In this document: positions 37,372 through 42,399 of the stretch, in pieces
Numbering within the stretch: position 1 is the stretch's first letter
Layout of the letters: every line of letters begins with the position of its first letter
NCBI GenBank assembly: GCA_025354605.1
Contig: JANXMN010000601.1
Location: 1 to 42,399, forward strand
Direction: 5' to 3'
Source of the DNA: Hymenobacter sp.
GTDB taxonomy: Bacteria > Bacteroidota > Bacteroidia > Cytophagales > Hymenobacteraceae
DNA length: 42,399 nt
Position numbers and translations under genes: made by a program
The notes under the pieces: generated by a model
The model's database searches: none
Told to the model about the DNA's origin: nothing
The model's input: only the letters and a program-made list of their open reading frames with translations

Positions 37372-39873
37372 ATGGCTGCTGAAGAAAACCCCACTACTCC
37401 GCCCGCCGGCGGAAACGAGCTATCCGCTGAAGACCGGATGACCATTTTGCAACGCCGACTGGCCGAGATTGAAAACCGTGCGGCTGGTGCGCCCGCTGGC
37501 ACCCTGTCGCCGGAATCTGGTGCGCAGGTTGAGTTGCCTGCCCAGGGTACGCCCGAGTTGCCCGTTGGCCAGCCCGCCGGGGCCGGTACTGCCGAACCTT
37601 CCGGCGAAGCCGTCATCATCACCGACCTGGGGGTTGCTGCGCCGGATGCCGGCACACCCGAAGCTGCTGCTGCTGCCGAAACGGCTCAGCACGTGCCCGA
37701 TGCCGTAACCGTTGATGGCCACGACATATCGGCACCTCAGGCCCGCGCGCTGGCCCATTATGATGGCATTTCGGCTGAGCCCCCGTCCAATCCCGAAGCG
37801 CTGCCCGCCGCCGAGCATATTGCCAGTGCTACTCCGGCTCCCATTGCCGACCCTGAAGTACTGAGCGCCCCGGCTCCTGAAAACGCCGAATCCCCGGATG
37901 CGGAGTTGCCCGTGGCTGACCTGCCCAATGCTGAGGCCATCGAAGCGGCTCCCGAAGCAGTTGCCACCCTGTCAACTTCCTCCGAAACCCCGGTGGCGGA
38001 AGAAACGCCTGAAGTTTCCGCAAGTGGCTCCGAATCCGAAGCCGTTCCAGTCACTGAACAGGTTTCGGCTGAAGTACCTGCGGTCGTGTCGCCGACGGCT
38101 GATGAGGCGGCGGTCTTGCTTGATGCTCCGGATAAATCGATGCCCGATTTCGCGGGCCTCGACCTGCCGGCTCAAGCGGCTTACTTGGTGGGTTTGTTGC
38201 GTCGCCCCGATGCCAGCAAACACCGCAAGCAGATTCAGGACCTTACCCGCCAATACGAAGCCAACGTAGGTCAGGCCCGTACCGCCGCTCGCGAAAAGTT
38301 TGCCGCCGGCGGCGAAGGTGCCGAAGCCTTTGCATTCCAGCAGCCCGAAGGCCAGCAGGAACTCAATAAGGCTCAGCAGGAATACCGCGAAAGCCGTGTA
38401 AAAGATGCCAAGGCGGAAGATGCCAGCCGTGGCGATAACCTTACTAAAAAGAAAGCCCTGCTCGACCAGCTCCGCATCCTGGTGGAAGGTGCTGAAACCA
38501 AAGACAGCTCCGCCAAGCTGAAGGCTTTGCAGGCCGATTGGAAGTCCACCGGAGCCGTGCCGCAGACCGACAGCCAAAGCATCTGGGACACGTATCACGG
38601 CCTGCTCGATATTTATTACAGCAAGCAGGGCCAGTTCCTGCAGATGAAGGACCTTGACCGCCGGCGCAATCTGGAAGCCAAGGAAGCCCTCATCAAGCGG
38701 GCGGAAGCCCTCGGCAGCGCTTCCGGTATCAATAAAGCCCTCGACGAGCTCACCAAGCTGCACGAAGACTGGAAGAACATTGGCCCCGTGCCCAACGACC
38801 AGCGGGAGCCGCTGTGGCAGCGTTTCATTGCGGCTTCCGATGTCCTGCATCAGCGCCGTAAGGAGTTTGCCGACCAGCGCTCCGTTGTTGAAAAAGCCAA
38901 CCTCGTGGTGAAGCAGGCTCTGCTGGAGCGCGTGCTGCCCTTCGCCAGCTTCGAAACCGACCGCGTGAACCTATGGCGCTCGAAAACCGATGAGCTGCAG
39001 GAAATCAAGGTTGAATGGGAGGCCGCCGGCCTCGTGCCCCGCGCTCAGGCCGACGCCTTAAACAAACAGTATTGGGCTGCCTATAAGGCGTTTTTCAATC
39101 GTAAAAACGACTTTTTCAAAAGCCTCGACAATGAGAAATCAGCTAACGTAAAGGCAAAGCAGAATCTCATCGACCAGGCTGAGGAAGCGCAGAACAATGC
39201 CGACCATGACACCGCCCGTCAGGTTATCATTCGGGTGCAGAAGGAATGGAAGGATGTGGGCCGCGTGCCCGATAAGCTGGCCGACAAGCTTTGGCATCGT
39301 TTCCGCGCCGCCTGCGATGCCGTTTTCGAGCGTCCCAAGCAGGAGTTCCGCCAGCGCGAGGAAAAGGTGCAGCTGGCTTCGGCTGAGCAAACCTCCCACC
39401 TCGATGCCCTGGCCGAGCAAATAAATGCCCTGTCGGCCGATGCCCCTGGTTCGCTGGAAGGCTACCGTGCCGTGCTGGCCGATTGGTCGGCTGCCTTCGA
39501 CCCTTCCGAAGCCGAGCCCGCTCGTGGCACTGGCGATGCCAGCGAAGAACGTTTGCTGGCCCTGCTGGGCAAGTACCTCGACCAAGTGCCCGGCTTGGCC
39601 TACGCCGACCGCACCGAGCTGCTCTTCCAGACCGAAATTGCCCGCCTCAAGGCCCGTCCGCAGGCCCAGCAGCAGCTGACGCGCAAGGAAATGGCGCTCC
39701 GCAAGGAAATCAACGAGCTGGAAAACGACGCGTCGACGCTGCAAACCAATCTCGACTTCTTCGCCCGCTCGAAGAACGCCTCGCAGCTGCGTGAGGAGTA
39801 CGAAGGCCGGATTGCCGAAGGACAGAAACGCATCGACACGCTGAAAAAGCAGTTGCGCCTGATTCGTAGCTAA
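37372..39873 (+). CDS. DUF349 repeat protein with long acidic Ala/Pro/Glu-rich N-terminal region
   Basis: Four W(K/E)xxGxVP-type DUF349 repeats (DWKSTGAVP, DWKNIGPVP, EWEAAGLVP, EWKDVGRVP); roughly 250-aa low-complexity N-terminus. Confidence 0.9.
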   Translation: MAAEENPTTPPAGGNELSAEDRMTILQRRLAEIENRAAGAPAGTLSPESGAQVELPAQGTPELPVGQPAGAGTAEPSGEAVIITDLGVAAPDAGTPEAAAAAETAQHVPDAVTVDGHDISAPQARALAHYDGISAEPPSNPEALPAAEHIASATPAPIADPEVLSAPAPENAESPDAELPVADLPNAEAIEAAPEAVATLSTSSETPVAEETPEVSASGSESEAVPVTEQVSAEVPAVVSPTADEAAVLLDAPDKSMPDFAGLDLPAQAAYLVGLLRRPDASKHRKQIQDLTRQYEANVGQARTAAREKFAAGGEGAEAFAFQQPEGQQELNKAQQEYRESRVKDAKAEDASRGDNLTKKKALLDQLRILVEGAETKDSSAKLKALQADWKSTGAVPQTDSQSIWDTYHGLLDIYYSKQGQFLQMKDLDRRRNLEAKEALIKRAEALGSASGINKALDELTKLHEDWKNIGPVPNDQREPLWQRFIAASDVLHQRRKEFADQRSVVEKANLVVKQALLERVLPFASFETDRVNLWRSKTDELQEIKVEWEAAGLVPRAQADALNKQYWAAYKAFFNRKNDFFKSLDNEKSANVKAKQNLIDQAEEAQNNADHDTARQVIIRVQKEWKDVGRVPDKLADKLWHRFRAACDAVFERPKQEFRQREEKVQLASAEQTSHLDALAEQINALSADAPGSLEGYRAVLADWSAAFDPSEAEPARGTGDASEERLLALLGKYLDQVPGLAYADRTELLFQTEIARLKARPQAQQQLTRKEMALRKEINELENDASTLQTNLDFFARSKNASQLREEYEGRIAEGQKRIDTLKKQLRLIRS

Positions 39874-39988: not shown

Positions 39989-40061
39989 GCCGCCTTAGCT
40001 CAGTTGGTAGAGCTTCTGACTTGTAATCAGAGGGTCGTTGGTTCGAGTCCGACAGGCGGCT
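39989..40061 (+). tRNA. tRNA-Thr (anticodon TGT)
   Basis: Cloverleaf: GCCGCCT/AGGCGGC acceptor, GCTCAGTTGGTAGAGC D-arm, TCTGA-CTTGTAA-TCAGA anticodon arm, GTCGTTGGTTCGAGTCCGAC (T-arm). CCA not encoded. Confidence 0.96.
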
Positions 40062-40081
40062 CATACTTCCATACCCGGAGC

Positions 40082-40130
40082 ACCCGGAAAACAGCTTCTC
40101 ACGTCGTGAAAGCAGTTTTCCGGGTTTTTT
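40082..40130 (+). terminator. Long hairpin plus T-tract downstream of tRNA-Thr
   Basis: ACCCGGAAAAC-a-GCTT-c-TCACG-t-CGTGA-AAGC-a-GTTTTCCGGGTTTTTT, almost fully paired. Confidence 0.85.
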
Positions 40131-40211
40131 GCGTCTAGGGGAATCGGTACTCCACGACGCGAAATCGGGGGTTTCCTACGCGAGGGACGCCCCCCATAAC
40201 GCCCCCCTTTT

Positions 40212-41522
40212 ATGGTTACCCAATTTGTGTTGCGAAGCGACAAGAAAGACAAGGACGGGAAGTGTCCCGTGCATCTGTTGGTTTATTTTGGTGGTGTTCG
40301 CCTGAAATGTGCCACCGGAGAAAAATGTAAGCCGGCGGACTGGAACGCAGACCGGCAGAAGTTCCGAGCCTCTTACCCGCTGCCGGATGAAGCAAACGAA
40401 CTGCTGGCACGGCTGGCCGCTGATACCCTGGCGTGGTGGCGCAAGCTGCGAGCGGCGGGCGAAGCGCCGACGCTGGCCGGCCTGCGGGAAGTGTTGCGTC
40501 CGAAGCCCGAGGCGGAAGTTGCGGCAATCAAACAAGAGTCCGTGACGGTGTGGTATGATGAGTACCGGAAGTCGATGGTGGCGCGGGGGTATGCCCGGGA
40601 AACGCTGCGGCACCATTTAGTTACTCGCAACTGGATGGTGGGCTTTGAGAAGTGGGCTGGGGTGCTGCTGGACCCAACGACGTACAACTTGGAGCTGCAC
40701 GACCGGTTGATGGTGTATTTGCGGGAGGAACGGAAGTTGGCGCTTAGCTCGGTGGCCACGGCTTTGAAAGACTTAAAGTCTTTTCTGAGGTGGCTGCGGG
40801 ATGAGCGGGGCGTGACGTTGGGGCTGGAAATCCGCAAAATATCCATCAAAGCGTTTGATGTGCCGAAGCTGTATCTGGCGGCCGACGACTTGCAGAAGCT
40901 GGAAATGGCCATGCTGCCGGCAAACCTGGTGCCGACGCGTGATATTTTCTTGTTCTGCTGCTATACTGGGCTGCGTTACTCGGACGTGTCGGGCCTGCAC
41001 CGGGGGCACCTGCATGAATGGAACGGGGGGAAGTTGCTGCGGCTGATGATGAGCAAGGCGCGGGCGGGGGTAAGCATCTACCTGACGACGGCGGCCCTAG
41101 CCATAATCGACAAGTACGCAGACCCGGAACGGCTCAAATTGTTGCCGGTGCATCCAAATCAGGTGATGAATAAATACCTGAAGCGGGTGAGCAAGCTGGC
41201 GGGGCTAACGGGGGCGGCCGACCTGGTGAGCACAGACAGCGGCAACCTAGTGCGGGCTGCGGTACCGAAGTGTGAGTTGGTGACGATGCACACGGCCCGG
41301 CACACGTTTGCGACGCAGAGCCTGCTGCGCGGGATGCCGGTGGAAGTGCTCCAGAAAATTCTGGGGCACAAGAAAATTCAGACCACGCTTATCTACGCGA
41401 AGATTATCGAGGACTTCCAGCACCAGACCATGCGCCGGATTTGGGACGGTCAATTGGAGGCAACGGACAGCGCCGGGGCTCGGTCTAGCCAGATTTGCGA
41501 AGTCGAGCCCGCGGTCGCGTGA
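40212..41522 (+). CDS. Tyrosine-type site-specific recombinase/integrase
   Basis: Bacteroidota-type Arm-DNA-binding N-terminus, SAM-like domain, catalytic CYTGLRYSDVSGL (R), HTARHTFATQSL (HxxR), LGHKKIQTTLIYAKI (GH...Y). Confidence 0.95.
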   Translation: MVTQFVLRSDKKDKDGKCPVHLLVYFGGVRLKCATGEKCKPADWNADRQKFRASYPLPDEANELLARLAADTLAWWRKLRAAGEAPTLAGLREVLRPKPEAEVAAIKQESVTVWYDEYRKSMVARGYARETLRHHLVTRNWMVGFEKWAGVLLDPTTYNLELHDRLMVYLREERKLALSSVATALKDLKSFLRWLRDERGVTLGLEIRKISIKAFDVPKLYLAADDLQKLEMAMLPANLVPTRDIFLFCCYTGLRYSDVSGLHRGHLHEWNGGKLLRLMMSKARAGVSIYLTTAALAIIDKYADPERLKLLPVHPNQVMNKYLKRVSKLAGLTGAADLVSTDSGNLVRAAVPKCELVTMHTARHTFATQSLLRGMPVEVLQKILGHKKIQTTLIYAKIIEDFQHQTMRRIWDGQLEATDSAGARSSQICEVEPAVA

Positions 41523-41875
41523 ACAAAACCTTGCACCAGCACCACCCGCCCTTTCAGTTTGGCGGGTGGCAGCTTGAGCTTGCTTACCAGCTCAGGCTTG
41601 ACGACTACAAGAAGGGGGCATTTGGGCCCGGTGCGGTCGAGGCTGAGCACGCAGAGGTTAGCTCGCTCGATGCGGAAGCCGACTACTGTAGCGCGGACGT
41701 GGACGTACTGGCCGTGGTGGGTTGCCGCCTCGGCAGCTGTCAGGTCTGGCGGTGTCGTGGAAGAGGTGAGGGCTACTAATGCCAGCAATAGAAAATAGCG
41801 GACACTTGCCGGCGGCTTCGTGCTGGCCGGCCGTGTTGCGGTACTGCAGCTATGCTTCATCCATGCTTTAGCCAT
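41450..41875 (-). CDS. Hypothetical exported protein, OB-fold-like
   Basis: Hydrophobic N-terminal segment (VRYFLLLALVALTSS), then HGQYVHVRATVVGFRIERANLCVLSL...LKGRVVLVQGFVHATAGSTSQIWLDRA. Overlaps the integrase 3' end tail-to-tail. Confidence 0.5.
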   Translation of the reverse strand: MAKAWMKHSCSTATRPASTKPPASVRYFLLLALVALTSSTTPPDLTAAEAATHHGQYVHVRATVVGFRIERANLCVLSLDRTGPKCPLLVVVKPELVSKLKLPPAKLKGRVVLVQGFVHATAGSTSQIWLDRAPALSVASN

Positions 41876-41937
41876 ACTCTAGCTACTGTGGGCTAACGCC
41901 GGCGTTACGTTCAGGGCAATGGGTCGAAATTGTGAGT

Positions 41938-42399
41938 TTACGTGTGTGAAGAGGGGGCTGCCATTGGAGGTGTACATGCGGCAAGAAAGCTTTTGCCAAG
42001 TGCTGTGAGCCACATCTCTTCCTTTTTAGCAATGCGTCGGATGAGGTTACCTTCATCATTAACATTAAACTCATCAGGTGGTAACTCGCACAGTTGCAGC
42101 CGCAGCAAATTGCTAGCAGTTACATCAAACACTTCTGACGTCATGCCAAATTGCTTGTAAAATGGGTCAAGTGTTATCTCAAAGCGGATTTGGTCGTCTA
42201 AGTATTTAGTGTACAAGTGCTCGATAATTTTGACTTCAGTAGGACCGAGTTGGCGAAGAATATCAACATACCCGACAGTCACGGCAACCTTTGCAGCTGG
42301 GTCTGCCGCGGTTGCCAGTAGAGCAGCCCACATTGCGATAAGGTCAGGCTCGGTTTCTAGTACTGCCGAGTTTAGCAAAGGGACCACTACTTTCATTTC
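41938..42399 (-). CDS. Abi-alpha/DUF4393-like protein (C-terminal part; truncated at the window edge)
   Basis: EPDLIAMWAALLATAADPAA...VGYVDILRQLGPTEVKIIEHLYTKY...LTALGKSFLAACTPP resembles the Abi-alpha/DUF4393 pattern from memory; no search run. Confidence 0.5.
   Translation of the reverse strand, partial: EMKVVVPLLNSAVLETEPDLIAMWAALLATAADPAAKVAVTVGYVDILRQLGPTEVKIIEHLYTKYLDDQIRFEITLDPFYKQFGMTSEVFDVTASNLLRLQLCELPPDEFNVNDEGNLIRRIAKKEEMWLTALGKSFLAACTPPMAAPSSHT

Follow-up and report, generated by a model that had tools for sequence, protein, structure and literature searches.

The left boundary of a probable tRNA-Thr-anchored integrative element, from a family known to date only in Hymenobacter, at the end of a draft-genome contig

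Introduction

What kind of DNA begins behind the threonine tRNA gene near the right end of contig C117 of Hymenobacter sp. (assembly GCA_025354605.1)? The window, that is, the whole stretch of DNA that we analyzed, is this entire contig of 42,399 bp, from a draft assembly of 601 contigs and 5.5 Mb. An earlier note, drawn up from the letters of the contig, had proposed that a tRNA-Thr-anchored integrative element starts here, pointing to an intact tyrosine recombinase about 150 bp after the tRNA gene, to genes past it without a housekeeping relationship, and to a drop in guanine-cytosine (GC) content near 41.9-42.4 kb. Our analysis leads to the same proposal, and we put the probability at roughly 80% that the right end of C117 is the left boundary of a tRNA-anchored integrative element whose family has so far been seen only in Hymenobacter. 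Since C117 ends inside the element, the interior rightward of position 42399 is unassembled in this genome, and a search for overlaps at contig ends gave no extension of the contig.

Results

The features of the right end of the window are collected in Table 1. The tyrosine recombinase (integrase) starts 149 bp past the end of tRNA-Thr and matches the Pfam families PF00589 (E-value 2e-14) and PF17293 (Arm-DNA-bind_5, E-value 1e-5), and its catalytic set is complete by motif position (R255-K282-H360-R363-H386-Y395). Integrases that relatives carry at this tRNA share 52-68% identity with it; in phage records the best match was 27%. GC content is 47.0% at 41938-42399 compared to 61.7% at 1-39988, and is as low in only 0.13% of same-size intervals in the rest of the contig. 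This low-GC interval holds a match to Abi-alpha (PF14337, E-value 5e-19), in keeping with the absence of a housekeeping relationship among the genes past the integrase, and all three observations behind the earlier note thus held.

The integration site itself is widely recognizable, as the DUF349 gene stands beside tRNA-Thr in most relatives, element present or absent. A related integrase occupies the DUF349-tRNA-Thr site in six of them (G004, G006, G016, G021, G030, G034), and the elements at the site in G016, G021, G030, and G034 carry differing cargo. In the two closest relatives, G011 and G029, the site is decayed and the integrase is truncated or internally deleted. G012, G014, G019, G020, G022, G024, G025, and others have the site without a related integrase; in G019, G022, G024, and G025 it is empty in the way that the earlier note had anticipated, the tRNA being followed by PAP2 and/or HD-gyrA. 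Rather than the integrase and its flanking genes being kept in all relatives, sites are thus empty, decayed, or differently filled, and a site that is filled in only some relatives, with another cargo in each of them, shows the pattern of a mobile element. Complete elements of relatives at this tRNA measure 32-58 kb. Related integrases also follow other tRNAs, namely tRNA-Thr(CGT) in G013 and tRNA-Leu(TAA) in G003 and in contig C550 of the same assembly as C117.

The distal junction was sought as a second copy of the tRNA 3' end. The exact 22-nt string that had been proposed for this repeat is single in the genome, whereas its last 15 nt plus one base recur at two further places. The 15-nt query was taken from the repeats, usually shorter than 22 nt, that bound complete elements of relatives (CCGACAGGAGGCTC in G034 and G016, though 87 bp long and with one difference in G030), and exact copies in the assembly lie on C117, C427, and C110. 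C427 carries TCCGACAGGCGGCTCATA, identical over 18 nt to the attachment-site (att) core at the tRNA on C117. The predicted distal direct repeat is therefore present, at 18 nt shorter than the proposed 22 nt; by our own arithmetic, which leaves the matching context uncounted, the number of random occurrences to be expected for an 18-mer in 5.5 Mb on both strands is about 2 in 10,000. In tRNA orientation, C427 reads replication-protein-like gene, C5 DNA methyltransferase (PF00145), helix-turn-helix (HTH) gene, small gene, S24 repressor (PF00717), and TCCGACAGGCGGCTCATA, the candidate attR. It is collinear up to attR with the right ends of the G016, G021, G030, and G034 elements, and an HTH-S24 repressor also closes the complete elements of relatives. 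Furthermore, from attR on, 68 bases of C427 match the native right flank of G029 at 84% identity, just ahead of ASCH-PAP2-gyrA. C110 holds PAP2-HD-gyrA, the order that follows the tRNA where the site is empty in G019, G022, and G024 (HD-gyrA in G025), and would be the chromosome beyond the element. C427 is thus the probable right edge of the C117 element, and we infer from att sequence and flank that C117 and C427 are two ends of one element. Together with the patchy occupancy, this distal copy bears out the proposal of an element starting at the right end of C117.

Two other candidates for the distal junction were rejected. The 18-nt copy on C110 (AGTCCGACAGGCGGCTCA, locus L101, 14292-14309) matches the tRNA-Thr 3' end in full, yet it immediately follows the PAP2 gene and runs opposite to the tRNA, so that it is not attR. 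It is absent at the same place in relatives and is possibly the trace of an earlier insertion or inversion. C550 belongs to a separate element after tRNA-Leu. We also considered that C110, with its lower GC content, might be contamination, but the same GC dip is found around and beyond gyrA in G011 and G029.

At the left junction, tRNA-Thr(TGT) is intact because the element restores the tRNA 3' end. The hairpin and T-run that follow are kept, with compensatory changes at 5 pairs, in 19 element ends located behind tRNA-Thr(TGT), tRNA-Thr(CGT), and tRNA-Leu(TAA), whereas empty sites have their own, different native hairpins directly after the tRNA. Thus, the tRNA 3' end and the native terminator are both exchanged for those of the element. 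The left-end sequence is kept through the spacer to the integrase start in most relatives and is 86% identical over 137 bp in C550; the spacer is a candidate arm-type integrase-binding and promoter region.

Table 1. Features at the right end of contig C117 (window coordinates)
Feature	Position	Strand	Remarks
DUF349 protein gene	37372..39873	+	PF03993, 5 stretches; chromosomal left flank of site
tRNA-Thr(TGT)	39989..40062	+	ARAGORN; Rfam RF00005, 70.6 bits; integration target
attL core TCCGACAGGCGGCTCATA	40048..40065	+	identical to candidate attR on C427
Intrinsic-terminator hairpin with T-run	40083..40130	+	element-borne; kept in 19 element ends
Conserved spacer, terminator to integrase	40131..40211	+	conserved up to integrase start
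Tyrosine recombinase (integrase), 436 amino acids	40212..41522	+	Arm-DNA-bind_5 and Phage_integrase domains
Small conserved gene	41450..41875	-	convergent with integrase, overlaps its 3' end; no Pfam family
Abi-alpha (PF14337, formerly DUF4393)	41938..42399	-	5' end cut by contig end; PF14337 match given for 41938-42396

The complete elements of relatives, in which genes were called with a simple longest-open-reading-frame script, show what the unassembled interior of the C117 element may resemble. Their left part consists of the restored tRNA 3' end, the hairpin with T-run, the integrase, and often SNase and DUF6266 genes. A PDDEXK exonuclease (DUF3799) follows, which is RecE-like and has exonuclease VIII as its best phrog match, then a YspA-type SLOG protein, an M15/endolysin-like protein, and variable cargo. 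The right part holds a conserved gene that we call replication-protein-like, an inferred name for a product without a Pfam family, then HTH genes, a CI-like S24 repressor, and attR. UmuD/UmuC-like genes occur in family elements as well. In the repressor, the motifs AQAG, GDSM, and VMLKR are invariant in five of five aligned family members, so that the Ala-Gly site and the Ser/Lys dyad are kept. The C427 repressor matches PF00717, its HTH part being read from a match to the CI-like phrog_4, and is predicted to be a self-cleaving repressor of LexA/CI type. The repressor, HTH, methyltransferase, and replication-like genes of C427 are all open up to attR.

Behind the integrase of C117, the small conserved gene encodes a hydrophobic product with a signal-peptide-like N-terminus and, with low confidence, a possible OB-type fold. 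Relatives of it stand directly after the integrase in contigs C127 (63%) and C92 (39%) of the same assembly, and the gene is therefore not a spurious reading frame. Neither its product nor a DUF6266 protein yielded a structure model good enough for use. Abi-alpha, at 47% GC, is the first variable cargo gene of the element. Its C-terminal 152 amino acids, the part present in C117, match profile positions 30-196 of 196 at 69.5 bits, compared to a curated cut-off of 29. The gene is single-copy in the assembly, and 10 of the 61 genomes sampled in the genus have it; searches of plasmids with Abi-alpha and sequence searches of PDB gave no match.

The earlier note had guessed that any undescribed system would most likely lie just beyond 42399. 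In the equivalent interior, relatives carry mostly known defence types: type I and IIG restriction systems, PtuA-like ATPases (Septu-like), SIR2, TIR, DUF4062, and an RNA-repair set. The G021 element (L078, L077) has a dense defence run of SIR2-like protein, large ATPases, Eco57I-type restriction enzyme, DUF4062, HNH with ATPase (Septu-like), and PDDEXK. An RNA-repair cluster (PNKP ligase, Hen1, RlaP) in G030 (L066, 1855-9365) and G016 (L069/L070) is 92-97% identical between the two while their other cargo differs, which suggests a recent module exchange between two species.

Family scans of whole element sets listed the 25 commonest families per scan. Among these, no relaxase, coupling protein, or type IV secretion system was found in the four complete relatives with Pfam, and no capsid or head, packaging or terminase, or tail family was listed for G034/G021 and G030/G016. 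This negative for virion genes is strongest in G034 and G021, for which 25 of 27 Pfam families were seen, and is weaker elsewhere. No gene or signal for redirecting or remodelling the packaging of a helper was recognized either, several core proteins having no family.

The distribution of the family was followed by its repressor. A repressor-alignment search with one genome per species found 35 loci, all from Hymenobacter among the named genomes. IMG/VR gave repressor matches of only 27-34% and no relative of the replication-like protein, and the best repressor match in phage records was 33%. A TTACCGAG-like motif lies about 35 bp ahead of the att core at 17 of 34 repressor loci, compared to an expectation of 0.02 per locus. 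At the same tRNA-Thr, five loci (L160, L174, L177, L179, L189) show elements stacked in tandem, the repressor and att being followed at once by a second integrase. In Hymenobacter artigasi (L159, 5439-8900), right-end genes are 81-95% identical to those of C427 and the att sequence differs, so that this right-end module also serves a different site.

The assembly that contains C117 holds pieces of several further elements. On C550, a second family element (L061, 8549-10056) follows tRNA-Leu(TAA); its integrase is 60% identical to that of C117 and departs from the family ahead of the catalytic tyrosine, and may be broken. C92 (L151) and C306 (L150) share a 27-bp overlap and together make up a large part of another element, with genes in family order: integrase, small gene, SNase, exonuclease, SLOG, and endolysin-like. 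On C451 (L062, 3560-3752), tRNA-Thr(CGT) is followed by an element-type terminator and spacer, 78% identical to C117, without an integrase, and this locus is probably an element remnant.

Discussion

The C117 element is best read as a phage-derived, probably SOS-controlled, defence-carrying island that depends on a helper to move between cells. The tyrosine recombinase would insert a circular form at the 3' end of tRNA-Thr(TGT), so that the tRNA end is restored and followed by the terminator of the element. The S24 repressor would keep the element silent until DNA damage; upon SOS-triggered loss of repression, the integrase could excise the element, which may then be amplified by its own recombination and replication-like genes and carried to new cells by a helper phage or another transducing agent. 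Transfer by a helper is proposed because the families listed included none for capsid, terminase, or conjugation. The host would benefit from anti-phage cargo such as Abi-alpha. A more specific form of this proposal, which we put forward only tentatively, is that the elements are phage-derived satellites and make up an undescribed family restricted to the genus, namely SOS-controlled islands of 32-58 kb with repressor, recombination, replication-like, and lysis-like genes and no virion genes, standing in tandem at tRNA genes and spreading anti-phage systems among Hymenobacter via helper phages.

Several points weigh against the helper-dependent island, and against C117 and C427 as its two ends. 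No contiguous sequence links C117, C427, and C110, and with several related elements in the genome the pairing of ends depends on att sequence and flank. The estimated contamination of the draft assembly, 5.75%, adds some risk when contigs are linked, although GC content and synteny are consistent with close relatives. The virion negative likewise comes from the 25 commonest families listed, and hidden or divergent virion genes could lie outside them. The pairing of ends bears on one alternative in particular, that this tRNA is followed by a tandem of two or more related elements separated by an internal att, C117 holding the left end of the first and C427 the right end of a different one. The arrays at the same tRNA-Thr in other loci and the pieces of several elements in this genome make this a possibility to be reckoned with, if a doubtful one; the assembly holds no third direct copy of the att core, though breaks at repeats could hide one. 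Decay offers a different account of the locus, in which the integrase and Abi-alpha are immobile leftovers, as the truncated or internally deleted integrases of the two closest relatives, G029 and G011, would lead one to expect. We consider it unlikely, since the C117 integrase is neither shortened nor lacking any catalytic residue, and since the repressor, HTH, methyltransferase, and replication-like genes of C427 are open up to attR.

The same gene content could also belong to a temperate prophage that is complete but has virion genes too divergent for recognition, and the CI-like repressor (phrog_4), the exonuclease VIII-like, endolysin-like, and UmuD/UmuC-like genes, and the element sizes would all fit. 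However, no head, packaging, or tail family was among those listed for G034/G021 and G030/G016, IMG/VR holds only distant repressor relatives and none of the replication-like protein, and defence cargo makes up much of each element, so that a prophage appears quite improbable. Conjugation, by which an integrative conjugative or mobilizable element like CTnDOT or NBU1 would move, has even poorer prospects, as none of its hallmark families was among the 25 commonest that the Pfam scans listed for the four complete relatives. We therefore retain the helper-dependent island as the reading that best fits the C117 element.

For what began as a guess at a contig end, the analysis has thus defined an element and supplied both its junctions, its integration site, its regulator, and the terminator that replaces the native one. 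A search of the literature found no description of a Hymenobacter element of this kind; the family is apparently undescribed and otherwise conventional, a new lineage of a known kind of island. Across Hymenobacter, a single island family brings defence genes to the same tRNA sites time and again, and it would make the question of how islands without transfer genes move between cells testable in cultured strains.

Classical phage satellites are smaller than the Hymenobacter elements. With the satellites described as P4-like, PICI, cfPICI, and PICMI (PMC11389934), the elements share a phage-type integrase and repressor, tRNA-type sites, defence cargo, and the lack of a complete set of virion genes as far as seen; they differ in that no packaging or capsid-modifying gene was recognized, and we do not claim membership. 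CTnDOT and NBU1 of Bacteroidetes likewise use an arm-binding tyrosine recombinase, and NBU1 inserts in a tRNA 3' end (PMC8138268), as the Hymenobacter family does, whereas no conjugation or mobilization gene was seen here among the families listed. The cargo gene of C117 belongs to the same Pfam family as Abi-alpha of Enterococcus faecalis V583 prophage 6, which causes premature lysis of infected cells (PMC6356687) and is also carried on an integrated element; the two hosts belong to different phyla, and the C117 copy comprises the C-terminal 152 amino acids, with a predicted activity.

Among described cases, the I55 family of Pseudomonas comes closest, a group of tmRNA-anchored islands for which transduction by a jumbo phage was shown (PMC12595487). 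Both families have a tyrosine integrase at one end, a regulator at the other, and direct repeats at the 3' end of an RNA gene, and both carry phage-defence cargo and no genes for autonomous transfer, in Hymenobacter among the families listed. The Hymenobacter family resides in a Bacteroidota host at tRNA genes instead of tmRNA, has an S24 repressor of CI/LexA type where I55 has AlpA, and carries additional RecE-like, endolysin-like, and UmuDC-like genes.
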